Source: Pontiella desulfatans | GTDB lineage: Bacteria; Verrucomicrobiota; Kiritimatiellia; Kiritimatiellales; Pontiellaceae | DNA: 64,000 nucleotides | Reading direction: 5' to 3' | NCBI RefSeq assembly: GCF_900890425.1 | Contig: NZ_CAAHFG010000001.1 | Coordinates: 3,162,001-3,226,000, forward strand | Shown here: positions 991-16,651 of the stretch, one piece after another | Layout: each line of letters begins with the position of its first letter | How positions within the stretch are numbered: position 1 is the stretch's first letter | Translations under genes and position numbers: made by a program | The notes under the pieces: model-generated | Told to the model about the DNA's origin: nothing | The model's input: only the letters and a program-made list of their open reading frames with translations | Databases searched by the model: none

Positions 991-1299
991 ATGACAGAAA
1001 AACATAATGAAGCAGAAGTTGTAGAACTCGAGGTGTATGCCAAAGCCCGCAAGCCTGTACCAAAGGATTGCAAACTATTCCGTATCAGAATTGACCGGGA
1101 AAAATATCTCGTTCAGCAAGCAGCGCTTACTGGTGCGGAGTTGCTAAAGCTCGCCGACAAGAAACCGGATCAATACCGGATACTGTTTAAAAAATGCAAC
1201 GGTAAGACAGTTGAAGTCCCATTGGATACGCACTTCAGCTTCCTCGACCCCGGAATCGAACGCTTTATGACCCAAAAACGTACCGCTCAGGAGGGTTGA
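991..1299 (+). CDS. Ubiquitin-like modifier (multiubiquitin-domain family)
   Basis: This 102-residue protein matches the prokaryotic multiubiquitin (PF14452-type) pattern: FRIRIDREKYLV, then LTGAELLKLA, then YRILFKK and a C-terminal FSFLDPGIERFMTQ. That order is a single beta-grasp domain. The tail ends in a single glycine (QKRTAQEG), ready for activation without processing. It is the first gene of an operon with an E2, a JAB-E1 fusion and a DUF6527 protein, so it is presumably the conjugated modifier. It is shorter than multi-domain relatives, which carry two or more beta-grasp units. Confidence 0.85.
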   Translation: MTEKHNEAEVVELEVYAKARKPVPKDCKLFRIRIDREKYLVQQAALTGAELLKLADKKPDQYRILFKKCNGKTVEVPLDTHFSFLDPGIERFMTQKRTAQEG

Positions 1300-1302
1300 T
1301 CA

Positions 1303-1701
1303 ATGCGTCGCGACTTCACCCCCTATGACGAGGATCTTGCGTACCTAGAGAGCCTTGGGACACCCTGGGAAGCTGTGCGCGAAGGAAGCCGCCTCTGGTA
1401 TATTCTTCATGAATACCAGCCTCCTACGGGGTATATACCTGAAGCAGTTTCGGCAGCATTCATGCTGCCCCCGGCCTATCCTTCCACACAAATCGACATG
1501 GTTTATTTCCACCCACCCTTAAAGCGGGGCGATGGAAAAAATCCTGCCGCCCTTGCCAACCACAATCTCGATGGAAAGCAATGGCAACGCTGGTCACGGC
1601 ATCGCCCTGCCCCGGTGGATTGGAAAGACGGTGTCGATTTTCTAGGAACCCATGTGGCCTATATTGAAGGCGTCATCTCAGCCGAAGTCGAAGGAGCATA
1701 A
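1303..1701 (+). CDS. E2-like conjugating protein (prokaryotic E2 family E)
   Basis: A 132-residue protein starting three bases after the Ubl stop. It fits the prokaryotic E2 family E pattern: a hydrophobic core with PPTGYIP and AFMLPPAYPSTQIDMVYF, then DGKQWQRWSRHR, where the family usually has its active-site neighbourhood. The protein contains no cysteine at all, so a classical thioester is impossible. The serine in QRWSRH is the natural candidate nucleophile. The partner E1 also has serines where cysteine is expected, which supports an oxyester route. The family assignment is firm; the mechanism is inferred. Confidence 0.85.
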   Translation: MRRDFTPYDEDLAYLESLGTPWEAVREGSRLWYILHEYQPPTGYIPEAVSAAFMLPPAYPSTQIDMVYFHPPLKRGDGKNPAALANHNLDGKQWQRWSRHRPAPVDWKDGVDFLGTHVAYIEGVISAEVEGA

Positions 1702-1702
1702 A

Positions 1703-3088
1703 ATGCAGTACAAATTAAGAATAGCAGGCATTCATTATGCTGAATTAAGAGATGCGCTATATCCCGGCGACTGGAAAGAAGCAGGGGCTATCGCAGTTTG
1801 TGGCCGGCGTGGTTCAGAAGGATGCACCACCTTGCTCGTGCAGAAAATCCATGCAGTTCCATTTGGTGCGTATCAGTCCCGTGAACCCGACTATCTTGAG
1901 TGGGATACACAATGGATGATCGACGTTCTCAACCACGCTGAATCAGAGGATCTTTCCTTGATTAAATTCCATAGCCATCCAGGTGGCGGGTCTTTCTTTT
2001 CAGAACGGGATGATCTGACAGATATCGGCATTTTGAACGAATGGTCTATTTTGTATGACCGCGCCACGCCACACGGAAGTGTCATAATGCTGCCAGATGG
2101 CGAACTTTTTGGGCGAATGGGATATGCCGGTCATCAGTTTATCCCGATAGAATCAATAGCTGTTGCCGGCAATCAATTACATTATTGGCAGCCAACGGAT
2201 CAGGAGTGCGTCTTTAGCGATGCTGAGTCCCGAAACCTCCAGACCTTCGGTGCAGGAACCACCGCAATTCTGAAGCGACTTAAGGTTGGCGTGATCGGAT
2301 GCTCCGGCACTGGCAGTATAGTTGTCGAACAATTGGCGCGCCTGGGAGTCGGACATTTGGTTCTTGTGGATCCCGACATTGTCGAGAAAAAGAACCTAAA
2401 CCGAGTCCTTAACACGACCGAAGAGGACGCTGTTAACGAACGATCAAAGGTGGATGTATTAAGCGATGCGATTCAGAAAATGGGATTTGAAACGCAGGTT
2501 ACTCGCATTGCGACCAACCTGGTCGCACCAAAACCCATCCAAGAAATTGCGTCATGCGACGTGGTTTTTGGATGCGTGGATGGCGCAGAGGGTCGCCATA
2601 TCCTTAATCGGATTTCTTCATACTATGTGATTCCGTATTTTGATGTAGGAATTGATCTCCAGGCTAGCGAGCATGGAGGCATCTCCCAGGTTACAGGAGC
2701 CGTGCACTACATTCAGCCGGGAGGCTCAAGCCTGTTGAGCAGAGGTATCTACTCCCAGGAAGAGGTCGAAGCCGAAGCATTAAGAAGATCAGATCCTGAG
2801 CTCTACGCTAATCATCTGAAGCAAAACTATATTGCTGGCGTTAAAGAAGACAGCCCAGCCGTTCTGCCAATCAACATGCACTATGCCAGCCTGCTGGTGC
2901 TGGAGTTCCTTGCTAGAATCCACAAATACCGAATTACAGACGATGCCGAATTGGCAATACAGCAGTACAACCTTGAAGACGTTGATAATGTTTATCGGGC
3001 AGAAGACGGCTTACCTTGCGCTGCCCTGGCGAAGCGAGTCGGCCGAGGGGACACCACCCCGCTACTGGACATCATCGGATTGGAATGA
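1703..3088 (+). CDS. JAB deubiquitinase-E1 (ThiF) fusion protein
   Basis: The start at 1703 lies one base after the E2 stop (461 residues). Residues 1-150 form a JAB/JAMM metalloprotease with an intact H90-x-H92-x7-S100-x2-D103 motif. Residues 180-461 are an E1/ThiF adenylating domain: GCSGTG at 199-204, VDPD with D223, NLNR with R234, and GCVDG at 290-294. The usual catalytic-cysteine loop is PGGSSLLSR (339-347), which has serines only. One protein would therefore both activate the Ubl and remove or process it. It works with the upstream Ubl and E2 and the downstream DUF6527 protein. Confidence 0.9.
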   Translation: MQYKLRIAGIHYAELRDALYPGDWKEAGAIAVCGRRGSEGCTTLLVQKIHAVPFGAYQSREPDYLEWDTQWMIDVLNHAESEDLSLIKFHSHPGGGSFFSERDDLTDIGILNEWSILYDRATPHGSVIMLPDGELFGRMGYAGHQFIPIESIAVAGNQLHYWQPTDQECVFSDAESRNLQTFGAGTTAILKRLKVGVIGCSGTGSIVVEQLARLGVGHLVLVDPDIVEKKNLNRVLNTTEEDAVNERSKVDVLSDAIQKMGFETQVTRIATNLVAPKPIQEIASCDVVFGCVDGAEGRHILNRISSYYVIPYFDVGIDLQASEHGGISQVTGAVHYIQPGGSSLLSRGIYSQEEVEAEALRRSDPELYANHLKQNYIAGVKEDSPAVLPINMHYASLLVLEFLARIHKYRITDDAELAIQQYNLEDVDNVYRAEDGLPCAALAKRVGRGDTTPLLDIIGLE

Positions 3089-3089
3089 C

Positions 3090-3464
3090 ATGCCCCGATT
3101 TATCAAAAAAGCGTTTCTGTTTATTCGAAGGCGACGAAGGTTTCATAGAATCGAGCATGTAGAAGATCAACCATTCTCCCTTTTGCTAGACACCATATAC
3201 GTTGTAGGAAAACCATATCCATGGTCTTTGATGTTCAAATGTCCCTGTGGGTGTGGCGACCGTGTGGAGCTGAATATTCTCCAGGATTGTTGGCCATGCT
3301 GGCGTTATTCCGAACAGGAAACTGGATTGATGTCGATATATCCATCAGTATGGTTAATCCATGATTGCGGAGCACACTTTTCTGTCCACGGCAGCAGCAT
3401 TAAATGGCATTGGGGTGTGAACAGACATAGTTCTGGCTTTCAGCACTGCCAAGAGTCGGACTGA
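3090..3464 (+). CDS. DUF6527 family protein, last gene of ubiquitin-like operon
   Basis: A 124-residue protein starting at 3090, one base after the JAB-E1 stop. It has the DUF6527 look: a basic N-terminus (FIRRRRRFHRIEHV), LMFKCPCGCGDRVEL around residues 46-60, LMSIYPSVW, and HDCGAHFSVHGSSIKW near the C-terminus. The CPCGC and CGAHF cysteines could bind one zinc ion. The family is regularly found beside prokaryotic Ubl/E2/E1-JAB genes. A role as ligase-like adaptor or sensor is plausible but unproven. Confidence 0.75.
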   Translation: MPRFIKKAFLFIRRRRRFHRIEHVEDQPFSLLLDTIYVVGKPYPWSLMFKCPCGCGDRVELNILQDCWPCWRYSEQETGLMSIYPSVWLIHDCGAHFSVHGSSIKWHWGVNRHSSGFQHCQESD

Positions 3465-3680
3465 CCGCAGACCCTCTTTCTAATATTTTTTACTAGCCGG
3501 ACAAATCAGGACAGAGTTCGCACTCAACGCCTCCGTGCTGAATATTTGTCTTCGTGAAACAGTCCCCCATTCAGTAGTGGTTTTCCAGTGGAACTTGCCC
3601 CAGGTCTGACCTTGGCTGTTGAAATAGAATGAGAAAGCCGCTACCATCCGAGGCCAGTCAAATGCCGAGGGAGACATCAG

Positions 3681-4044: not shown

Positions 4045-6042
4045 CTAGAGGTTGTTGGGATCGGAAATGAACCGGAGGTTGTCGACGGATATATTCCGCG
4101 ACTTGAGATCGCGCAGGGTTTTGTGCTTTACGGATTCGGCGGTGCTGAAACTGATGATTTGATCAAAACCGAGTTCCAGCAGTTTCTGGATATTGTCGGC
4201 ACCCCGTGATCCGGTCTCGATTTCAACGGCCATGCGTTTCCCTTCCTTTTCGGCATGCAGGTCTATGCATTGGTTGTTGCCGATGGGCTTTTCCAGCTCA
4301 ACCGTCCAGCCCTCGCGGTCTAGCTTTCGGCGGATCTCGTTTTTCCAATAGTTATGGATGAGGCCGCCCTCTTTCCGCTTGGCCACCTCTACGTTGTTTC
4401 GTTTCATGGCGTCACGCATGTCCGGGGTAAAATCGAGCAGCACCACTTTTCCGGTTCGAGTTGGAATATCAACGGGATGGATAAGGCCCTTTAGAATAAG
4501 TCCCTGCTTGGCATGGTTGCCGCGTCTCCGGCTGATGGTCAACCGTGAATAGCGTTTTACGACTCCGTCAAACGGGTTTCGGTATATATCCTTCATGAGC
4601 TTTTTCTCCACTTCAGTAAGAGAGGTTCCAGGTTCGTTCTTTCCTATTCTATGAATATGGGGAACATCCTTGGTTGGGTTGGAATCCGCTTTATCCGGAG
4701 ATTCCCTTGAGGAATCCTTGGAATAGGTTCCGTATCGCTGAATGAGATGCGCGTCGGTGACGGAGCCCTTTTCGAGATCGACCTTGGGGATCTGAATCTC
4801 GAACGGGAAGATGAAGCGCGACTGGAGTTTTACGACGGCGTGGCCGATGGGCAGGAGTCCGAGCACCTCGCGGTGCTCCCGCGGGATACGCATCATTTCG
4901 GCAAGGGAATTGATGTCCTTGCTGTGCTTCATGTTGAGCGCGATGGTGCAGTAGGTATTACCGAGCGCCGGGACGGAAATCTGGCTGGGATGCTGGTCGA
5001 CCAGCACGATGGATTCGCCCATCTCCCTGATTTCACGCAGGAGGAGATCGATGACGGTTTCCTTGCCGGTGTTGGTGAGGATGTTGTGCGCCTCCTCAAC
5101 AATGACGCAGTGCTTGAAGGTTTCCCGGTCGGGTTCAAGCATCCGGCAGTGGTGGATCCAGACCATCAGCGTTTCTATAAGGAAGATCTTTTCGTTGTGC
5201 GCCAGTGAATTGAGTTCGAGGCAGACGTTTTTATCGAGCAGTTCCTGTATGCCGGATTGGGACTCGGTGTTGATGACGTCGGACACCTGTCCAAAGCAGA
5301 GGCTCTGAACGGCACGCATGGTGGAATCGAGCCACATGGCCTTCCGGCCTTTAACAGGCATCTTTTCGAGAAACTCCAGAACATCCTTCAAGGTCGGGAA
5401 CCGTTCAGGGTCGGCGGTGTAGCATCCGTATTTTGTGTAGACGGCATCGATGGCCTCCAGAAGAATGAACATGACCCCCTCCCCCAGAAAATACGCATGA
5501 CTGATAATCTCGATCAGTTTCTTGAGCCAGACCTTCAAGTCGGTGCCCGGCGGCGGGATCAGCGGATTGAAATGCAGCGGATGAACGGGTCGGCCAACGG
5601 TGTAGATTTCCAGTGGAACATCGTGCGCCAGCAGATCGCGGTAGTTCCGTTTCCAGTCGAAAATCAGGAAAGGCTTTTTGTGCCGTACCAGCTCTTTTAT
5701 GAGCAGGGCTACGGTGTTGGTTTTCCCCGCGCCGCTCCGGCCAAAAATCGCCATGTGCTGGATGAACTCGTCTTCGCAGATTCCAAAGGGATACAAGACC
5801 TGGTCGTGCGCCAGAACCTTTCCCAGCTCATACTGCCCGGCGGCATTCCCTTCCGGCGGAATATGGAGTCCGTTTTCAACGAGCGGGTTGACGCCGAATT
5901 TTCGTTCGAGCTGAAGCTCCACCAAGGCTTCGATATCGCGCTTGCCGGCGCTGTCGCTCAACTGGTGCTGGCGCCAGATTTTAAGCGCCTTGGATTTGCC
6001 GATATAGTCGGCCAGTTTCTTGAGCGATTCCTCAAAGATCAT
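4045..6042 (-). CDS. HerA/FtsK-type ATPase with winged-helix and nuclease-like tail
   Basis: A 665-residue ATPase. Walker A is GRSGAGKTN (101-109), Walker B is CVIVEEAH (312-319), and LVDQHPSQI (347-355) is a typical HerA-like sensor. After a low-complexity linker (440-470), residues 475-545 look like a winged helix (YRNPFDGVVKRYSRL, SRRRGNHAKQGLI). Residues 560-630 (IDLHAEKE, MAVEIETG) resemble PD-(D/E)xK-like modules. This layout is familiar to me from archaeal mobile-element and chromosomal HerA relatives. It probably pumps or processes element DNA. Its start overlaps the end of the upstream 185-residue gene by 11 bases, so they form one unit. Confidence 0.85.
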   Translation of the reverse strand: MIFEESLKKLADYIGKSKALKIWRQHQLSDSAGKRDIEALVELQLERKFGVNPLVENGLHIPPEGNAAGQYELGKVLAHDQVLYPFGICEDEFIQHMAIFGRSGAGKTNTVALLIKELVRHKKPFLIFDWKRNYRDLLAHDVPLEIYTVGRPVHPLHFNPLIPPPGTDLKVWLKKLIEIISHAYFLGEGVMFILLEAIDAVYTKYGCYTADPERFPTLKDVLEFLEKMPVKGRKAMWLDSTMRAVQSLCFGQVSDVINTESQSGIQELLDKNVCLELNSLAHNEKIFLIETLMVWIHHCRMLEPDRETFKHCVIVEEAHNILTNTGKETVIDLLLREIREMGESIVLVDQHPSQISVPALGNTYCTIALNMKHSKDINSLAEMMRIPREHREVLGLLPIGHAVVKLQSRFIFPFEIQIPKVDLEKGSVTDAHLIQRYGTYSKDSSRESPDKADSNPTKDVPHIHRIGKNEPGTSLTEVEKKLMKDIYRNPFDGVVKRYSRLTISRRRGNHAKQGLILKGLIHPVDIPTRTGKVVLLDFTPDMRDAMKRNNVEVAKRKEGGLIHNYWKNEIRRKLDREGWTVELEKPIGNNQCIDLHAEKEGKRMAVEIETGSRGADNIQKLLELGFDQIISFSTAESVKHKTLRDLKSRNISVDNLRFISDPNNL

Positions 6043-6589
6043 CGTTCAGCACCCTCTTAATCCTCCGCTCACCGGCATAGTCTGACCATGATTCGAATAT
6101 GTCGCCCAGCAACCGGTTGGTATCTCGCCAGCAGGCCACCTCTTCGGCATGCCTTTCCTTGGCCAGGGAATGAATCTGCTTTTCAAGCTCTGACTCGAAC
6201 CGGCTGTGAATGCCGTTATAGTTTGGCCAGTTCCGCAGCTCGGACAGGATGCCGTGAACCCGCAGCTGTTCGTATTCGGTGCTCTTTACAATGCCGTATG
6301 AAATCGCATGCCGTGCTTTGAGCTGCTTGACCAGTATATCGATGTGATCGCCATGCAGGTGCAGCCGGTCGGTCGCAAAATCCAGCGGCTCGACCTCGTA
6401 GGCGTTCCTGCTGTTGAAAATCTTCTCGGTCAGCTCGTCGGGATTCTTGAAGGGACTTTTGTCCGGCTTGATCTCCCGGATGATCTCGAAGGCGGGCTGC
6501 CCGGTTTCAACATGATAGTTGTATGCGTCCTGTTGGCGCTCCGCCTCGGCGTCATACAACGGTATTCCGTATTTGTCTTCAAATGCCAT
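6032..6589 (-). CDS. Unknown partner protein of HerA-type ATPase
   Basis: A 185-residue protein. The start at 6589 (MAFEDKYGIPLYDAE) is chosen because GGAG lies nine bases upstream; an upstream start at 6625 would fall inside the TATA-like box. The C-terminal half is rich in charged helices (RFESELEKQIHSLAKERHAEEV), suggesting coiled coil. No enzymatic motif is visible and it is not an obvious NurA nuclease. Its 3' end overlaps the ATPase start, so a complex with the ATPase is likely. An archaeal-like promoter box (6621-6639) precedes it. Confidence 0.65.
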   Translation of the reverse strand: MAFEDKYGIPLYDAEAERQQDAYNYHVETGQPAFEIIREIKPDKSPFKNPDELTEKIFNSRNAYEVEPLDFATDRLHLHGDHIDILVKQLKARHAISYGIVKSTEYEQLRVHGILSELRNWPNYNGIHSRFESELEKQIHSLAKERHAEEVACWRDTNRLLGDIFESWSDYAGERRIKRVLNDDL

Positions 6590-6620
6590 ATTACCACTCT
6601 CCGGTAGGAATAAATGGGTT

Positions 6621-6639
6621 GGCATTTATAAAGGTTTCG
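6621..6639 (-). promoter_or_regulatory. Archaeal-like BRE/TATA box before the HerA operon
   Basis: On the minus strand this reads CGAAACC-TTTATAAA-TGCC. A CGAAA stretch directly before TTTATAAA matches the archaeal BRE plus TATA pattern. There are 35 bases between the TATA box (6625-6632) and the ATG at 6589. The same CGAAACCTTTATA core with the same 35-base spacing precedes the gene at 13847-14074. Confidence 0.5.
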
Positions 6640-8775: not shown

Positions 8776-9375
8776 TGGACGAAAGGGGATCGAAATGGAT
8801 TGCACAACATGGTTGGCATCCAGAGCAGCCGGCGGTTTCCCCCGATCGACGGACAGCCTTCGCGCGGCTTACGTTGCCCTTGCGGATCATGCTGATCGAG
8901 CTGATCAATCCGGCCATGATGATCGTGATGGTTATGCTGGTCACGCTGATTGTGTTGGTTACGCGATCATGCTGGCGATGCTGTTCAAGCTGCTCATACC
9001 GATCAAGCCGCTCTACCGATCAGGCCGCTCTACCGATCTAGCTGCTCATGCTGGTTACGCCGCTCTACCGATCAGGCCGCTCTACCGATCTAGCTGCTCA
9101 TGCTGGTTACGCCGCTCTACCGATCAGGCCGCTCTACCGATCTAGCTGCTCATGCTGGTTACGCCGCTCACGCTGATCTGATCCTAGATAGATCCCTGGT
9201 TCCCCTTCACAAATAGAAAATATTACCTAGTCGCTTTTTGATACTCTCCAATATCAATTGCCAACCAGGCACTTACGGGATTTCGAGGGGTAACGAAAAG
9301 ATACGGTTTCCGGGTTCCAAAGAGGCTTTTTGTTACTCTGAAGACCGATTATTGGTACTTGCGTTACTACCGCTA
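8776..9375. other. Gene-free repeat region between small-gene cluster and repressor
   Basis: About 600 bases without a convincing gene. From 8880 to 9007 the sequence is built from variants of GATCATGCTGATC and GATCAAGCCGCT, and then passes into a perfect 52-bp tandem repeat (9008-9163). Open frames across it are low-complexity products of the repeat. The stretch 9180-9375 is unremarkable and leads into the repressor gene's 3' end. It probably contains the promoter of the leftward cluster. Confidence 0.5.
9008..9163. repeat. 52-bp tandem repeat, three perfect copies
   Basis: Three consecutive identical 52-bp units (9008-9059, 9060-9111, 9112-9163), followed by the first seven bases of a fourth. 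Each unit contains CCGCTCTACCGATC twice, so there is also a shorter internal periodicity. Iteron-like arrays of this type are known at plasmid origins, partition sites and transfer origins. Which applies here is not visible. Confidence 0.9.
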
Positions 9376-9723
9376 TTACGAACGCTTGGACTGTTTTTTC
9401 TGGCGCAGGAAGTCACAGAAATCCGCCACCTGCTCCTGCATCCTGGGAGGCATGGATTCCATGGCATGGAGGACTCGTTGCATGTAGAGGCTCTGTTTTG
9501 AGGTTGGAACCACACCCGCGAGAAGATGATCCACGGAACACCCCAGGGCACCGGCCAGCCGGGCAAGCATCTCGGCCGAAGGCTTCCGTATGCCCCGTTC
9601 GATGTGGGAGACCGCGGACTCCGTGGTCTCTGCCTGGACTGCCAGATTTTTCTGAGACAGCCCGAGCGTTGTCCGCTGTGCCTTGATCGCCTTGCCTATT
9701 TTGTTGGATCCTGAACCACTCAT
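9376..9723 (-). CDS. XRE-family transcriptional repressor
   Basis: A 115-residue protein. Residues 8-65 form a typical Cro/C1-type helix-turn-helix (IGKAIKAQRTTLGLSQ, then TTESAVSHIERGIRKPS, then LARLAGALGCSVDHLL). The C-terminal 45 residues are charged helix and probably dimerise. It is divergent from the membrane-anchored coiled-coil gene at 9844, and the 120-base spacer holds a small inverted repeat that could be its operator. It is likely the copy-control or maintenance regulator of the element. Confidence 0.85.
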   Translation of the reverse strand: MSGSGSNKIGKAIKAQRTTLGLSQKNLAVQAETTESAVSHIERGIRKPSAEMLARLAGALGCSVDHLLAGVVPTSKQSLYMQRVLHAMESMPPRMQEQVADFCDFLRQKKQSKRS

Positions 9724-9843: not shown

Positions 9844-10572
9844 ATGAAATACATCATAGCAACCGCATTGGTCGTCCTGGCACTGGTAACGGTCTTCGAC
9901 GCCCACAAGCTCATCCCGATACCTCGGGCTGTAGGATCCATTGTCAACGGATCCCTCTCGAAGCACCTGCCCTTTGGGGCGAAGGTCGCCTACGCTGAAT
10001 CCTGCATGGCGGATCTGAATCGCGAACGCGACCAGGTGAGGTATGCCGTGTCGGACGCCTCAGTCCGCCTGCGGATTCTGGATGGCCGGATCGAAACTCT
10101 GAAACGGCGGCAATCGGAATGCAGGACTGCAATCCGTGACCTGGTCGATATGGGAGAAAGCACCGCCCCGGATTCCCTAGCCCGGACGGTTGAGCGGTAC
10201 GACCATCTCCTTGCCGAGATCGATCGGCTACATCATCTCAGGAATCGACTGGCTGACACGGCTTCCTCGCTTGAACTGGCCGAGACCCAGGTTAGCGCCG
10301 ACCTCAGGGAGCTTGACAACCGCCTCAAGATCGTGGCGATTGACCATGAACATAATGACGCCCGCGAACTCGCGTCGCAACTGGCCGGCACCTCCTCCTA
10401 TCCGGATCAATTCAACCGGGCGAGACAGTGCGCCGACCTGCTCGATACACTGGAGCACCGGGAACGGATTCGGGAGGATCTGCATAGCCGATATGGATAT
10501 GAATCCATTGACCTGATGCAGCGCCCCAATCCCGCGGAACGTGCCCGGGAGATTCTTGCCGGGGACTGCTGA
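9844..10572 (+). CDS. Membrane-anchored coiled-coil protein
   Basis: A 242-residue protein with one N-terminal hydrophobic segment (IIATALVVLALVTVF) that could be an anchor or uncleaved signal. It is followed by about 180 residues of charged helix with heptad-like leucines (LRILDGRIETLKRR, HHLRNRLADTASSLELAE, LRELDNRLKIVAI), predicted coiled coil. No enzyme motif is seen. It is controlled from the spacer it shares with the XRE gene. It may belong to a transfer or membrane-attachment apparatus together with the 12386-13528 protein. Confidence 0.7.
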   Translation: MKYIIATALVVLALVTVFDAHKLIPIPRAVGSIVNGSLSKHLPFGAKVAYAESCMADLNRERDQVRYAVSDASVRLRILDGRIETLKRRQSECRTAIRDLVDMGESTAPDSLARTVERYDHLLAEIDRLHHLRNRLADTASSLELAETQVSADLRELDNRLKIVAIDHEHNDARELASQLAGTSSYPDQFNRARQCADLLDTLEHRERIREDLHSRYGYESIDLMQRPNPAERAREILAGDC

Positions 10573-11138
10573 TTCCCAGCGAGAGTAAACTTCCACTGGA
10601 ACACTACGCAAGCGCGGTCGGTTCATCCCATTGAATCGGCCGCGCGTCTTTTCATTCCTCCAATAGATTTATAACTGTAGTCCTGTAGTAGTAGTATAGT
10701 AGTAGTTATAGATAGTAGTAAGTAGTAGTAGGCTCCACTGGAAATCTACTCCCACTGGCGGGCATGCCGCCTTATGCCATCTACGATCCATCAAGCATGA
10801 AGCCTTGAGCGGATTGTGAAATGTTGCCGCCGAGAATGTAGATGGAGGTTGCCACTCATTTCATTCGCTGCTTTCCTTCGGAAAGCCCCGCTTCGCGTCC
10901 AGCTCCATTGTCCAGGGGTGGCAAGCGGATGTCGCATGCATGGCGGAGCTGGAAGCTCCATCTACATTGTCTAAGCTTGGGCTTCGTTTTTTGGAGTTGT
11001 CCAGCCCTGAACTTGTTTCGAAGACCTATTTCGCCCGCAGGCGGTATCCATGTTTTCTGCCACTACACCCCAGTGACGCAAAAGATTTAAATAGTTCCCC
11101 CATCTACACTTCCACTGGAGTGTGATTTTCCAGTGGAA
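10573..11138. other. Candidate archaeal-type replication origin beside orc1/cdc6
   Basis: A 560-base gene-free stretch directly upstream of the Orc1/Cdc6 gene. It holds four copies of a TTCCASTGGAA-like motif: 10591-10601, 10733-10743, 11110-11120 and 11128-11138, one or two of them with one mismatch. The motif resembles the mini-ORB core (TTCCAGTGGAAAC) bound by archaeal Orc1/Cdc6. Between the first two copies, 10657-10732 is rich in A, T and TAG triplets and could be the unwinding element. The last copy overlaps the GTG start, which would allow autoregulation. Confidence 0.55.
10835..10968. repeat. 134-bp element with 13-bp terminal inverted repeats
   Basis: AATGTAGATGGAG (10835-10847) and CTCCATCTACATT (10956-10968) are perfect inverted repeats. 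No open frame of interest lies between them. The size and structure fit a miniature inverted-repeat element inserted into the candidate origin region. No target duplication was established. Confidence 0.5.
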
Positions 11139-12389
11139 AGCAATATACAACAACGCATATGGGCTGAAATAGAGCAGGCAACAGAGAATTCGGTTGTCGT
11201 CAATCAGGACTACTTGGACGACGAGCAGCTTACGCGCCAGCGCCAATTCGAAGTCCTGAGCGAAATATTTAATATGAACATCCGGAGCCAGGAGATCCGG
11301 ACGATCAGCAACCACTTCTCTCCTGTTTTTCGGGGCGGGCATCCCAACCACCTTGGACTTGGCGGCAAGACCGGCACGGGGAAGACCATCACGATTCTCT
11401 GGTTCCTTGCCCAGGTGGCCCAGCTCTGCAAAGAGCGGGACATTCCATTCCGGCAGGTGCATCTGGATTTTTGCTGCCCGGTTCCGTGTTTTCGTGCGCT
11501 CAACACATTGGCCTGTCTGCTGGATGCCAGCAAGGCCTACCGCAAAGGCATCAGCCTCGAAGAACTGATGGTTCGAATTGAGCGGAAGCTGGCTTCGCTA
11601 CGGGGATTTCTGGTGATCTTCATCGATGAGGCGGACAATGTCCGAACCGATTTCAACACCTTCTATCAGTTCCTCATCAAGCGGCTTCCACAGCGAATAT
11701 CGGCCAAGCTGATCTTGGTCTTTGCCTCCAACCGGCTGAATTGGATGGAGAACCTCGATCCCCGAGTAAAAAGCTGCCTAAAGCTGCGTGAGATGATCTT
11801 CCAGCCCTACGACGCAGACAGTCTGCACAGGATACTGGAAATCCGGGTCAAGAAGGCGATGCGTTCTGATCGAATTGAAGAAGGGGTGATTCCCAAGATC
11901 GCGGCGTTGGCCTCCCAGCAGCATGGCGATGCCCGGAAAGCGGTCAATCTGCTACGGCGTTCCGCGGAGTTGGCGGAGGAGGATCGGACTCCGATCTCTC
12001 TTGAGACCATTGGTCGCGCATATGAAGAAATCGAACGTGACAAGTACGTGGATATGATCCGGGGCAGCCCAAAGCAGCTTCAGGCCGCGCTCTATGCAGC
12101 GCTGACGGGCAAACCAAAGGGCGGGCGCGTCCTTCACACCGGTGATGCATATTTGGTCTACGAGCGATTCTGTGCAGAGTCCGGGCTTCGACCGGTAACC
12201 CAGCGGGCGTTCAGCGATCTGCTATGCGAACTGGATATGTATGGATACTTGAGGGCACGGACCGTATCCCGAGGTCGCTATGGCCGAAGCAAGGACATCC
12301 ACGTGACCTTGGCTCCCAACATTCACAAACGGCTTCTTCATGTTATCAGGAGCAATTTCGATCTGGATTCCGGGGTGAGCTACGCATGA
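11133..12389 (+). CDS. cdc6: Orc1/Cdc6-family replication initiator (archaeal type)
   Basis: A 418-residue AAA+ protein. Walker A is GKTGTGKT (78-85), Walker B is VIFIDEAD (161-168), sensor 1 is FASN (197-200), and sensor 2 GDARKAVNLLRRS (265-277) is diagnostic of Orc1/Cdc6. The C-terminal winged helix (about 305-395) carries TQRAFSDLLCELDMYGYL and VSRGRYGRSKDIHV, which match archaeal Cdc6 very closely. It should bind origin boxes and load a replicative helicase. The start is a GTG lying inside an ORB-like motif. A TTTAAATA box with AAAAGA before it lies 39 bases upstream. Its end overlaps the next gene (ATGA). A bacterial DnaA or RepA identity is excluded by the winged helix. Confidence 0.93.
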   Translation: MESNIQQRIWAEIEQATENSVVVNQDYLDDEQLTRQRQFEVLSEIFNMNIRSQEIRTISNHFSPVFRGGHPNHLGLGGKTGTGKTITILWFLAQVAQLCKERDIPFRQVHLDFCCPVPCFRALNTLACLLDASKAYRKGISLEELMVRIERKLASLRGFLVIFIDEADNVRTDFNTFYQFLIKRLPQRISAKLILVFASNRLNWMENLDPRVKSCLKLREMIFQPYDADSLHRILEIRVKKAMRSDRIEEGVIPKIAALASQQHGDARKAVNLLRRSAELAEEDRTPISLETIGRAYEEIERDKYVDMIRGSPKQLQAALYAALTGKPKGGRVLHTGDAYLVYERFCAESGLRPVTQRAFSDLLCELDMYGYLRARTVSRGRYGRSKDIHVTLAPNIHKRLLHVIRSNFDLDSGVSYA

Positions 12390-13528
12390 GCCGTGATCCA
12401 TTTGATGGCGTACTCGATCCCTTCGCATGGTGGGACATATCGGCCACCTATGAAAAATATTCCGGCTTTTTCGATCTGGTCATCTATTGCACGATCTTCA
12501 TTGCCCTGGCTCACGTTATATTCACGAAGCGGTTTAGCGGACGCGCCGGAAAAGCCATGGCCACCGCTATTGGTCTGGCTTTGGGTATTTCATTGACCCT
12601 GGCAGAGCAACAGTTCGGCATGAACCTGCGCCAGGCGGGTCCTATCGCCGTCTTCATTGCGATGCTTCTTGTCGGATTCCTGATACTGCATGTCCTGATC
12701 CGGGTGCATGTCAGCTGGAAGCTGGCGGTTCCGTTGACCTATATACTCATGTATCTTTTTGTCCGAGCAATGAGCCCGGCCTTGTGGCGGGCGATTACCG
12801 ACCGTGTTCCATTCATCGGTCTGCTGTCCGCTATCATCTTTCTCATCTGTGTCTGGCAACTGGGCGTGGCGATCTGGCCCAAGAGTAGTGGTCACCATGC
12901 AGCCAAGGACTCGGACTCGGCCTTCATCGCGACCTTGGACCGCAAACATGAGGATCGGGAGGTAAAGGTTGAGAAGCGTATTAAGCGGAAGCTGGTTCCT
13001 GAAGTTAGACGCGAAACGAAACGGATCGAGAGGAACCTGAAGGGTCTTTTGCGGGAACTGAAGCGCGACCCACCACGATGGCAAGCCATCGAACGCGCGC
13101 TATCCGATATCGGCCACGGTTCCGACGACGTGCTGAAGGCCATCGACCGTATTCGCACCCTGGACCGCCGCTTGAGAAATTTTGATTGGCATGAGCTGCA
13201 ACAGCTCAGCAGCTACTACCGTGATTTGAACGAGAACGACAAGGAACGATTGAAAGAACAGATTCTGCTGGAGCGCCGAAAGATCGTCCAGGAGCATGCA
13301 ATCGTGGAGCTCGCGGAGCGATGCGAACATCGTCATCAGCAGATCCGCCAAGGCCTGGACCAGGCATCCCGGGCATGTTCAATTGAAGACCGCGATGGTG
13401 CGGCACATAGTATTTCAAAGGCAATTCAGCTCGAAGAACAGCAAAAAAGCGACCTGGATCAACTCAAGTGCGCGGAAAAAAAGTTGCTGCAGCTGACACG
13501 CCTGAAAATCAAAAAAGAAAAAGGATGA
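12386..13528 (+). CDS. Multi-pass membrane protein with long coiled coil
   Basis: The ATG at 12386 overlaps the Orc1/Cdc6 stop (380 residues). Five hydrophobic segments occupy about residues 24-175 (for example LVIYCTIFIALAHVIF, AVFIAMLLVGFLILHVLI, LLSAIIFLICVWQLGV). After that come about 190 residues of highly charged helix (KVEKRIKRKLVPEV, RRLRNFDWHELQQLSSYY, QSDLDQLKCAEKKLL-like heptads). No known family is recognised. Coupling to the initiator gene suggests a role in maintenance, membrane tethering or transfer of the replicon. Confidence 0.75.
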   Translation: MSRDPFDGVLDPFAWWDISATYEKYSGFFDLVIYCTIFIALAHVIFTKRFSGRAGKAMATAIGLALGISLTLAEQQFGMNLRQAGPIAVFIAMLLVGFLILHVLIRVHVSWKLAVPLTYILMYLFVRAMSPALWRAITDRVPFIGLLSAIIFLICVWQLGVAIWPKSSGHHAAKDSDSAFIATLDRKHEDREVKVEKRIKRKLVPEVRRETKRIERNLKGLLRELKRDPPRWQAIERALSDIGHGSDDVLKAIDRIRTLDRRLRNFDWHELQQLSSYYRDLNENDKERLKEQILLERRKIVQEHAIVELAERCEHRHQQIRQGLDQASRACSIEDRDGAAHSISKAIQLEEQQKSDLDQLKCAEKKLLQLTRLKIKKEKG

Positions 13529-13846: not shown

Positions 13847-14074
13847 TCAAAGCGGATAGGGCTTTCGGTCAATGCCGAACTCCCGCCTCACGATTTCAGA
13901 ATGTCGCCCAGCGAAAGCTTTCTGCCATGCATAGGCTTCGGGATCGACTTGAGAATGAATATCCCCGTTTGGGGACGAGGTCCATGAATCATCTGGAACT
14001 GGATCTCCCACAATGAGGTCATTCAATACGTGGTTCTCGTGCAGGTCGATCCAATTTTCATAAAATACAGACAT
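13847..14074 (-). CDS. Small orphan protein behind an archaeal-like promoter
   Basis: A 75-residue protein starting MSVFYENWIDLHENHVL, with GAGGTG upstream; an adjacent ATG at 14077 is the alternative start. It is acidic with several tryptophans and no recognised motif. It is convergent with the lipoprotein gene. It lies exactly 35 bases downstream of a TTTATATA box, the same geometry as for the HerA operon, which supports it being a real gene. Confidence 0.55.
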   Translation of the reverse strand: MSVFYENWIDLHENHVLNDLIVGDPVPDDSWTSSPNGDIHSQVDPEAYAWQKAFAGRHSEIVRREFGIDRKPYPL

Positions 14075-14090
14075 CATAGGCACCTCTAAC

Positions 14091-14133
14091 ACCTGCGAAG
14101 ATGCCGAAATATATAAAGGTTTCGTTTTCGAGG
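14091..14133 (-). promoter_or_regulatory. Archaeal-like BRE/TATA box; 43-bp repeat copy 1
   Basis: On the minus strand the core is CGAAACC-TTTATATA-TTTCGG (14104-14124), with 35 bases from the TATA box to the ATG at 14074. The surrounding 43 bases match 16609-16651 at 40 positions. The plus-strand frame starting at 14101 is an artefact of this repeat. Confidence 0.5.
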
Positions 14134-14442: not shown

Positions 14443-14503
14443 TGGTGCCGGAGGTGGGACTCGAACCCACACAGATTTCTCCGCGGGATTTTGAATCCCG
14501 TGC
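14443..14503 (-). tRNA. tRNA-Leu (CAA) 3' part only, truncated; candidate att site
   Basis: On the minus strand the sequence gives an anticodon stem CGGGA-TTCAAAA-TCCCG (anticodon CAA), a variable arm, T arm GTGGG-TTCGAGT-CCCAC, and an acceptor strand CTCCGGC-A-CCA. The 5' acceptor strand GCCGGAG and a normal D arm are missing, so it is not a functional gene. Such 3' parts are what site-specific integration into a tRNA leaves behind. By polarity, element DNA should lie to its right, towards the integrase. Confidence 0.75.
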
Positions 14504-14728
14504 ACCAATAATTCCCCCTTTATTTAAAGATATTTAGCCGATCACAGCATCAGAGAGAGGCATTAGCTCCAACAAACACTCAACTCCGGTAAAGTTTGTG
14601 AGATAGAAACCAACTATTAGCTAACTGACGCTGGTCATGGGTCGAATACTTACTAGTCTCGAGCGCTAAAGATATTATACTCATCATCCAAGGGTTTCGC
14701 ACCCATACGAACAAACTGGGGCTCATAA
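14504..14728. other. AT-rich spacer behind integrase
   Basis: No gene or clear repeat is seen. Together with 14134-14442 it makes an almost gene-free stretch of about 600 bases around the tRNA-Leu fragment, consistent with an attachment region or eroded integration junction. Confidence 0.4.
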
Positions 14729-16210
14729 TTATCTTTGCAGTAATTCCTCCTTAAGCTGCTTCCAGTTTTTTTCGGTCATAGCCTCGAGCTTATCCCGCAC
14801 CCACCGAGGCAATGGATCTGTGATGACTTCAGCCTCGGCATCCTTCACATCGTCTCCAATATACAGCGTTGCTCTTTTTGCAGCATCGTCCGAAACATGG
14901 GCATACAAACCGGTCATCGCCGAGCTTCCATGACCTGCTATTTTCTGCACGATAATCTGCGACGTCCCCTTGTTCGCCTGCATGGATATGAAGGTGTGCC
15001 GAAGGGAGTGAAACCCGACGGCAACAACGGCCTTTTCCCCTGTATACACCTTGATGTACTTCCCTTTATTTTCGGGATCTGGTTCGACCTTGTATCCAGT
15101 ACCGTCGGCATGGATCTGTATACCGCATGATACGAAATGATTTTGAATCCGGTTCGTTATGCGGGTGCGATGCGTATTCTTCCCCTTTTCAGAAACGTAG
15201 TTGTAATCCGCAGCGCACTCTGGCAGCACATAACCTCTCCGTTTTGACTTTGGGGTTTCCAACAACCGACGAACCAATCTTGGAGGTATGCCGATTTTCA
15301 CCGCTTCAGACTGCGTCTTACTTGGAACTCGTTTGATCATTGGCATATCGAGCAGGCACTCATCCCATTTCAATGTGCAGCAATCTCCCAAGCGCAATCC
15401 CGTATAAGCTCCAAGCATGAACAATGTCTGGAAATCCCCTTCTGCCCTATCAAGAACCATCACCAATTCCTCCTCGGTCAAATCCCTGCGTGTATGCTCC
15501 TTGGCACGGGCTTTCGCCTTGGCCTTCGATAAGCTCTTAGTCGTAAGGTCGGCAAATGGCGAAACATCACCCCGTATCTCTTCCTTCATCACGTAGTAGA
15601 TAAGTTTAAGGAAATTGATGTGTTTGTTGTAGGTGCCAGAGGCAGCTTTTCGACCCAACAATCTGGCATATTCAAATGCGGCCTTTCTATCGATATCTCG
15701 CATGTAGACAACTTCTGAGTCATACGACGTCAACCACCCCACAAACTGATTCCAATGACCGTGGTAGTTGTAGAGCATCGTCGATCCGCAATCCAATGCG
15801 GGATGATCCTTAAAGCAGCTCCACGCGTCCTCGACAGTCAAAGGTGGGTCTGCATCTTCTATTACGGATAGATGCCTGGCCTCGACCCTTTGCAGTTCAG
15901 CCTTAAGGAGCCCGACCCTGTCACCCGTGACATACTGCGCCATGAGTTTCTCCTGAGCAATACGGGCTTTTTTAAGCGTCGTGATCGGATTTCCATCCTC
16001 ATCCAGAAGCTTCTCCCGCTTTTTATTTTTAATGGGTTTCTCTGTAACCGGGTCTGTCTTGCCGGTTGGTTTCTGATACTCGATCCAGTAAACTCCACCA
16101 TTGACCCCCGGAGTTCCTGCGGGAAAATCACGTTTATCTCTTGAGCGAATATATAACCGCCCCATCCCGCGCTTGGCGCGGCCTGCACTGCCTTGCTTCC
16201 CGGTGGTCAT
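14729..16210 (-). CDS. int: Tyrosine recombinase (phage-type integrase)
   Basis: A 493-residue recombinase. The catalytic set is complete: R273 (TGLRLGD), H401-x-x-R404 (HSLRHTF), H427 (AGHGSS) and Y436 (LYAHV). The N-terminal half contains an arm-binding region and a SAM-like core-binding domain (about 125-215). It is longer than most phage integrases owing to a charged N-terminal extension and inserts in the catalytic domain. GGAG precedes the ATG. It lies between truncated tRNA-Leu and tRNA-Tyr 3' parts and presumably catalyses integration at one of them. Confidence 0.92.
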   Translation of the reverse strand: MTTGKQGSAGRAKRGMGRLYIRSRDKRDFPAGTPGVNGGVYWIEYQKPTGKTDPVTEKPIKNKKREKLLDEDGNPITTLKKARIAQEKLMAQYVTGDRVGLLKAELQRVEARHLSVIEDADPPLTVEDAWSCFKDHPALDCGSTMLYNYHGHWNQFVGWLTSYDSEVVYMRDIDRKAAFEYARLLGRKAASGTYNKHINFLKLIYYVMKEEIRGDVSPFADLTTKSLSKAKAKARAKEHTRRDLTEEELVMVLDRAEGDFQTLFMLGAYTGLRLGDCCTLKWDECLLDMPMIKRVPSKTQSEAVKIGIPPRLVRRLLETPKSKRRGYVLPECAADYNYVSEKGKNTHRTRITNRIQNHFVSCGIQIHADGTGYKVEPDPENKGKYIKVYTGEKAVVAVGFHSLRHTFISMQANKGTSQIIVQKIAGHGSSAMTGLYAHVSDDAAKRATLYIGDDVKDAEAEVITDPLPRWVRDKLEAMTEKNWKQLKEELLQR

Positions 16211-16429: not shown

Positions 16430-16488
16430 GGCAGACTGTAAATCTGCCCTCTCTGAGTTCGATGGTTCGAATCCATCCCCCACCACCA
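16430..16488 (+). tRNA. tRNA-Tyr (GTA) 3' part only, truncated; candidate attR
   Basis: GCAGA-CTGTAAA-TCTGC is the anticodon arm (anticodon GTA). A variable arm, the T arm GATGG-TTCGAAT-CCATC and the acceptor strand CCCCACC-A-CCA follow. No GGTGGGG 5' strand or D arm exists upstream. A terminator follows directly, so the right side is the original chromosomal flank. Integration into the tRNA-Tyr 3' end explains the structure. Confidence 0.8.
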
Positions 16489-16530: not shown

Positions 16531-16608
16531 ATTCTTTACACAAAACTCCCTGCTCGAAACTGATCAAACGAGTTTGCTACTGAGTCATCTGTACTATGCC
16601 GAAATAAT

Positions 16609-16651
16609 ACCTGAGAAGATGCCGAAATATATAAAGGTTTCGCTTTCAAGG
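16609..16651. repeat. 43-bp repeat copy 2 (orphan BRE/TATA-like box)
   Basis: Matches 14091-14133 at 40 of 43 positions, including the CGAAACCTTTATATATTTCGG core on the minus strand. Here the downstream frame is only MTQ and a stop, so it drives no visible gene. It lies on the chromosomal side of the tRNA-Tyr fragment, suggesting a relic of a second element. The rest of 16531-16874 shows nothing else of note. Confidence 0.7.

Follow-up and report, generated by a model that had tools for sequence, protein, structure and literature searches.

The window analysed here is a 64,000-nucleotide stretch within a 4.37-Mb bacterial contig of Pontiella desulfatans, whose genome comprises 8.66 Mb in 6 contigs. 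The 665-residue open reading frame at 4045-6042 is a real gene of the minus strand, a strand that an earlier sequence-only reading of this DNA had left unstated; stop codons interrupt the plus strand over the same interval. Its product is designated HerANuc. The genes, protein domains, repeats and tRNA fragments in and around it are listed here.

991-3464, plus strand: cargo genes encoding multi-ubiquitin, E2-type, JAB-ThiF (E1) and DUF6527 proteins (profiles)
4045-6042, minus strand: HerANuc, HerA-type ATPase with winged helix and PD-(D/E)xK tail, 665 aa (profiles, alignment, model)
4066-4377, minus strand: PD-(D/E)xK-like domain of HerANuc, residues 556-659, with D594, E607 and E609 (alignment, model, weak profile matches)
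4408-4614, minus strand: winged-helix region of HerANuc, residues about 477-545 (secondary structure of the model, conservation across relatives)
4753-5838, minus strand: HerA/FtsK-type ATPase core of HerANuc, residues 69-430 (DUF87, 4.5e-14; fold matches)
6032-6625, minus strand: p197, coiled-coil hairpin partner (kept upstream of most HerANuc homologues; model)
9376-9723, minus strand: XRE-type regulator (HTH_3, 5.5e-14)
9844-10572, plus strand: 242-aa protein with an N-terminal transmembrane (TM) segment and a coiled coil, matching coiled-coil models only
11133-12389, plus strand: orc1/cdc6-type initiator with AAA+, lid and C-terminal winged helix (TIGR02928, Cdc6_C, Cdc6_lid)
12386-13528, plus strand: memCC, with 3-5 predicted TM helices followed by a coiled coil
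13847-14077, minus strand: small open reading frame, 76 aa, convergent with memCC
14087-14133, plus strand: 47-bp direct repeat (91%) on both sides of the integrase, copy 1
14443-14506, minus strand: 3' fragment resembling tRNA-Leu(CAA), on the other side of the integrase
14729-16210, minus strand: tyrosine integrase (Phage_integrase, 3.7e-13)
16430-16488, plus strand: tRNA-Tyr(GTA) 3' fragment with terminator, presumed attachment site
16605-16651, plus strand: 47-bp repeat, copy 2, containing a second archaeal-type motif at 16630-16641 (minus strand)

The three-part architecture proposed by the sequence-only reading stands up. The core gives a significant match to the HerA central domain DUF87 in Pfam (4.5e-14). 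An AlphaFold model built from 20 natural relatives (mean pLDDT 84) shows a helical N-terminus (residues 1-49), the core at about 69-430, the predicted winged helix at about 477-545 and, at 560-659, a predicted alpha-beta-beta-beta-alpha-beta arrangement, which is the PD-(D/E)xK topology. Among the 20 aligned relatives, tail residues H563, W566, G578, E584, D594 and E607 are invariant, and E609, N617 and K620 nearly so. Profile matches of the tail, each of them weak, converge on PD-(D/E)xK enzymes: Hjc, AHJR-like, BamHI, Mrr and Cas4. The putative catalytic set is D594 with E607-x-E609, in which a Glu takes the Lys position of the D...(D/E)xK motif; BamHI also carries Glu at that position. The sequence blocks quoted earlier as resembling the tails of archaeal mobile-element ATPases can all be located: YRNPFDGVVKRYSRL spans residues 487-501, SRRRGNHAKQGLI 504-516 and MAVEIETG 604-611.

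The solved folds nearest to the HerANuc core are the C-terminal part of DndH (7es4, Z 34.8), VirB4 (Z 31.2) and HerA (Z 30.0). Re-alignment to PDB structures covers the HerA core only and therefore carries no information on the tail. HerANuc scores below every curated HerA, CedD and VirB4 cut-off: the best NCBIfam match, CedD model NF053655 (5.6e-25), reaches 88 bits against a cut-off of 600, while the anti-phage HerA models NF042943 and NF042944 give 31.1 bits against 800 and 19 against 850. No TM segment is predicted in the protein. Comparison of the copies in two elements described below, A and B, gives a dN/dS of 0.083, indicating purifying selection. Across the family three architectures occur, namely core only, core plus winged helix, and core plus winged helix plus nuclease.

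The p197 reading frame overlaps the start of HerANuc, and its true start is likely near 6589. A gene of this type, encoding 120-280 aa, overlaps or directly precedes the HerA gene in most loci, bacterial and archaeal alike. The p197 model consists of a disordered N-terminus and then a long predicted coiled-coil hairpin. Judged by sequence, HerANuc is a new HerA subfamily, nearly always with coiled-coil p197 upstream; from domain content and model we infer a motor that pumps DNA, fused to a domain that cuts it, both activities being predicted.

HerANuc shares its ring-ATPase core fold and motifs with HerA of the HerA-NurA system and with anti-phage HerA. It differs from the former in having a helical N-terminus and no HAS barrel, with a neighbour, p197, that is a coiled coil and not NurA, and from both in its fused winged helix and PD-(D/E)xK tail and in scores that fall short of the curated cut-offs. 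CedD/CedB and VirB4, of Ced import and type IV secretion (T4SS), supply the best profile match (CedD) and a close core fold (VirB4); unlike these, HerANuc has no TM domain, no VirB4-type N-terminal domain, and no Ced or T4SS partners were seen. The C-terminal ATPase of DndH is the closest solved fold, but its flanking domains are different, and no DndF or DndG partner occurs among the scanned genes.

The genome encodes exactly four full-length HerANuc proteins, with identities of 100, 93, 79 and 78%, and its four HerANuc, four p197 and four Orc1 genes coincide at four sites. These are elements A to D, element A being that of the window. Their common core consists of the p197-HerANuc pair, a divergently arranged orc1-memCC pair and a tyrosine integrase. 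In three of the elements (A, B and D) tRNA 3' fragments adjoin the integrase; a matching far-end copy of the tRNA-derived attachment site was not found for these three elements, nor did we find a circular form, an empty site or an intact tRNA for the elements. Comparison of the integrase end with the HerANuc end of elements C and D gave no significant direct att repeats, and in an empty-site comparison downstream of rex the rex flank varied among relatives. In element A the 47-bp repeat, with its archaeal-type promoter, brackets the integrase and two tRNA fragments, and may be what is left of a tandem element. Element D has, on the side opposite the core, two identical 39-bp tRNA 3' fragments that are oriented alike and separated by 14.7 kb (G000 C2:496957-496995 and C2:511648-511693), possibly marking a second, tandem element.

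Cargo differs among the four: multi-ubiquitin, E2 and JAB-ThiF genes in A, JAB-ThiF-type genes in C and D, and MoxR-VWA genes in A and B. In the ubiquitin-like operon at 991-3464 the JAB-ThiF gene is a fusion, and JAB-ThiF-like genes are also found at loci L025, L028 and L141. A set of VWA (DUF2201), MoxR-type AAA and SAP-domain genes recurs beside HerANuc across phyla (L034:13217-17834 in A, L035:5046-8697 in B, and L009, L010, L011 and L026). Elements B, C and D carry a second, distant HerA with a similar winged-helix and nuclease tail, together with a gene for an SprT-like protease; each of these three second HerA genes also has a Cys-rich partner gene (L036:8170-10805, L037:8042-10817, L040:12103-14731). 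Tandem 52-bp repeats lie in GC-rich DNA between p197 and the XRE regulator, at 8875-9177 of the window.

Between A and B, HerANuc is 93% identical and Orc1 62%, a mosaic which indicates that modules recombine; since HerANuc-p197 has here recombined apart from orc1, functional coupling of the two is not strict. A viral or common-plasmid origin was considered and is unsupported, as plasmid, phage and IMG/VR viral collections contain no full-length HerANuc match.

The sequence-only reading had also grouped HerANuc with an Orc1/Cdc6 initiator and membrane coiled-coil proteins, and had linked its tail to archaeal mobile elements. The initiator of the window scores 249.7 bits against TIGR02928 (curated cut-off 181.3), all four copies of the genome pass, and Walker A and B motifs are intact. 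Predicted TM segments and coiled coils occur nearby, in memCC among others. HerANuc shares its element with a cdc6 gene in each of the four copies of this genome, as it does in many further bacterial genomes. The dN/dS of Orc1 between C and D, 0.044, again indicates purifying selection. The Orc1 copies of the elements split into several divergent lineages, which means that the initiator slot was refilled more than once; divergent lineages in other phyla fall under the TIGR02928 cut-off. The memCC gene, listed as an open reading frame starting at 12224, overlaps the orc1 stop, and memCC accompanies Orc1 in most other loci. For MCM, only a generic AAA fragment was found in the host genome, and nothing among the scanned element proteins; an Orc1-fired origin would therefore need another helicase in the bacterium. 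A 67-aa protein of element B with a TFB-like Zn-ribbon was rejected as a TFB, being transposase-like by eye.

Two kinds of short motif surround these genes in the window, dyads resembling archaeal origin recognition boxes (ORB) and motifs resembling the archaeal BRE-TATA promoter.

6627-6638, minus strand: archaeal-type BRE-TATA motif CGAAACCTTTATA, ahead of p197-HerANuc
10591-10601, plus strand: ORB-like dyad TTCCACTGGAA
10662-10731, plus strand: AT-rich TAGTAGTA stretch between two ORB-like dyads
10733-10743, plus strand: ORB-like dyad CTCCACTGGAA(AT)
11080-11091, plus strand: BRE-TATA-like motif AAAAGATTTAAA, 53 bp ahead of orc1
11110-11120, plus strand: ORB-like dyad TTCCACTGGAG
11128-11138, plus strand: ORB-like dyad TTCCAGTGGAA, overlapping the orc1 start and perhaps coincidental
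14112-14123, minus strand: archaeal-type BRE-TATA motif, ahead of the 76-aa open reading frame

The 600 bp upstream of orc1 in element A contain four exact copies of TCCASTGGA, against two in the remaining 121 kb, and TTCCASTGGAA with at most one mismatch is found 10 times in the whole window against 0.94 expected. Two exact dyad copies lie elsewhere in the element, at 3583 and, inside HerANuc, at 5608. The dyad at 10733-10743 with its right flank GGAAAWYTACTCNCAC, and the TAGTAGTA-rich stretch between dyads, recur in elements B and C and at L009 and L010. Overall the dyads are strong in A, partial in B and L009, weak or degenerate in C and D, and essentially missing ahead of the divergent Orc1 lineages. 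The ORB consensus published for archaea starts CTTCCAGTGGAAAC (PMC4153887); the archaeal 3' G-string (AGGGGT) is absent after the dyads described here.

The BRE-TATA pattern RAAANNTTTAWA, allowing one mismatch, precedes 13 of 20 orc1 genes and 14 of 242 other open reading frames of the same loci (P 3e-10); as the pattern had been chosen after some of the sequences were viewed, the test was repeated by unbiased motif discovery. This returned AAGnTTTATAAAC upstream of orc1, with a log-likelihood of 63.2 against 38.1 +/- 3.4 in controls, and nACCGAAAnnTnT upstream of p197, with 55.0 against 37.3 +/- 2.4. The exact archaeal BRE-TATA sequence CGAAANNTTTATA is found 10 times in 106 kb of element DNA, against 0.035 in simulation, and not once in 146 kb of host DNA. 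The window contains four exact matches to RAAANNTTTAWA, all of which fall between 6.6 and 16.65 kb; one lies about 140 bp past the tRNA-Tyr fragment, in copy 2 of the 47-bp repeat. A small open reading frame with the same kind of motif stands at the equivalent place in B, C and D. The integrase and the ubiquitin-type cargo are without the motif, and no sigma-70-like site was found ahead of orc1 or p197. In sequence, the motifs ahead of genes are of the type of the archaeal core promoter known from textbooks, a BRE and then, at a fixed distance, a TATA box.

The association of HerANuc with Orc1 extends to other genomes. Among 337 genomes of the phylum to which this Kiritimatiellota bacterium belongs, 4 encode Orc1 (E<=1e-15) and 4 encode full-type HerANuc; in 3 genomes the two occur together, a few kb from each other at most. 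In Planctomycetota, 6 of 392 genomes have Orc1, at eight loci, six of which have HerANuc within about 10 kb; of the other two loci, one lies at a contig end and one on a 6-kb contig. Two of these genomes (G351 and G356) were already known HerANuc carriers, and without them the linkage is three of four loci. Orc1 is present in 13 of 20 bacterial genomes, all picked through HerANuc.

Archaeal relatives occur in DPANN, where 26 of 236 genomes of the phylum that contains Nanoarchaeia have a family member and most of the examined relatives have p197 upstream. Most DPANN relatives have no nuclease tail; they are surrounded by chromosomal genes (ribosomal proteins, OapB/OapC) and make up a separate clade. 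In one genome the HerA-p197 pair adjoins OapB/OapC. Where a tail-less DPANN relative and the main orc1 share a contig, the two are 11-69 kb apart in six of seven cases, a proximity that is suggestive only, because the genomes are partly related. Outside this clade, four archaeal sequences group among the bacterial element sequences; at least three of the four have the tail, and an integrase gene adjoins one of the four (L112). With these relatives, the origin boxes and the promoters, the archaeal mobile-element link is stronger than the sequence-only reading had made it; a tail matching some ordinary bacterial HerA or restriction protein unconnected with archaea, which would have spoken against that reading, was not what emerged. 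The elements probably began in archaea and entered bacteria horizontally.

HerANuc is the hallmark of a mobile-element family, apparently not described before, that resides in bacterial chromosomes. The conserved core of these elements, as read from the sequences compared, is p197-HerANuc and orc1-memCC; to it are joined a tyrosine integrase, attachment sites at tRNA fragments and cargo that can be exchanged. The replicon looks archaeal in type: archaeal-type Orc1, ORB-like dyads and BRE-TATA motifs suggest that a shell of bacterial integration and cargo genes encloses an archaeal-type replicon. The best overall explanation, to which we give a probability of about 0.5, is an integrative element of archaeal origin with an archaeal-type replicon whose DNA is pumped by HerANuc. 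The element would be excised by its integrase and then replicate as an archaeal-type replicon, for which Orc1 would bind to the dyads and open the AT-rich stretch. HerANuc would form a hexameric ring on double-stranded DNA, placed there by its winged helix and p197, and would pump element DNA during or after replication, in segregation, decatenation or resolution. The PD-(D/E)xK tail might cut junctions or ends, and would be optional, relatives on DPANN chromosomes being without it. The most likely role of HerANuc is therefore as a double-stranded DNA pump that acts after replication to segregate or resolve the element, a role favoured by conservation that is linked to the replicon and not to the cargo, by the common promoter type and by the DPANN proximity to orc1.

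The strongest rival, owing to the similarity to CedD and VirB4 and to the membrane protein beside Orc1, is that HerANuc-p197, perhaps with memCC as a channel, is a motor for cell-to-cell DNA transfer, a VirB4/CedD-like or TraB-like double-stranded DNA pump, with Orc1 establishing the element in the recipient. CedD, the best NCBIfam match, is an archaeal DNA-import ATPase (PMC11868833), the VirB4 fold is near, memCC has TM helices and a coiled coil, and the elements are spread over many phyla and archaea. The CedD score, however, is far from its cut-off, HerANuc has no TM segment, memCC is missing from many HerANuc loci and is not near the DPANN p197-HerA pair, and the scanned core genes include no relaxase, pilus or pilin, coupling, mating-pair or T4SS gene; we regard transfer as somewhat unlikely. 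Known HerA defence complexes join HerA with nucleases, and a HerA ring with a fused nuclease could likewise be an anti-phage or anti-plasmid effector carried as defence, in keeping with weak matches to anti-phage HerA, DndH and mad8 models and with defence-like cargo (the ubiquitin-like system, MoxR-VWA). That HerANuc is found in every element of the set, unlike cargo, shares the initiator's promoter type, lacks the nuclease tail in many relatives and has DPANN relatives that are chromosomal genes beside housekeeping genes makes this quite improbable.

The archaeal character of the motifs can itself be questioned. Bacteria are not known to possess TBP or TFB, so that archaeal promoters should be silent there, yet the genes are under purifying selection; the elements also encode HTH regulators, and the motifs might be operators or promoters of such element-encoded bacterial regulators, or promoters of an alternative sigma factor. 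This we consider unlikely, given that the pattern is the textbook one, stands at about -50 in several bacterial phyla and before divergent orc1 lineages, recurs at the p197 gene of DPANN archaea, and does not occur in the host DNA scanned, with no sigma-70-like site in its place before orc1 or p197. Mis-assembly or contamination, which the short MAG contigs of some distant loci (L013-L017, L030) might suggest, is scarcely credible for four copies in a six-contig genome, embedded in a megabase-scale bacterial contig beside rex and respiratory genes, with a further copy in a Pontiellaceae genome (L009).

We rate the elements as integrative elements with an unusual archaeal core. To see them as inter-domain elements still shuttling between archaea and bacteria would go further, and is a tentative and rather doubtful proposal. 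In archaeal hosts TBP, TFB and RNA polymerase would transcribe the replication and HerA module and the ORB-type origin would fire; in bacteria an integrase adapted to bacterial tRNA genes would keep the element in the chromosome, its archaeal module silent or differently used.

Orc1/Cdc6 initiators are regarded as archaeal and eukaryotic. Archaeal Orc1/Cdc6 replicons with ORB boxes, such as haloarchaeal plasmids and integrated elements, resemble the present elements in initiator family, dyads by the initiator gene, an AT-rich stretch between boxes and the BRE-TATA promoter. The elements differ from them in residing in bacterial chromosomes, in boxes without the G-string, in the linked HerANuc-p197 and memCC, and in their bacterial-type integrase, tRNA fragment and cargo. 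The pT26-2 plasmid family, which has seven core genes, is likewise archaeal and integrative and encodes a HerA-like ATPase as well as membrane proteins; it is reported from Thermococcales and Methanococcales only, and from no bacterium (PMC6972569). The likeness to the present elements is one of description (integrative, HerA-like ATPase, membrane proteins). The open-access literature gave no account of Orc1-HerA elements in bacteria. If the archaeal signals are true, the recurrent elements would show that archaeal-type replicons enter bacteria as a whole and not just as isolated genes. They suggest an exchange of entire replicons between the two domains of life, and would be natural material for testing whether an archaeal initiator fires in a bacterium without MCM. 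The elements also define a HerA-nuclease subfamily with a conserved partner common to DPANN archaea. Core-only HerA relatives of about 445 aa (L056-L060) occur in other genomes of the phylum, some with several per genome; these genomes have no Orc1 match, and the relatives possibly belong to another element family.
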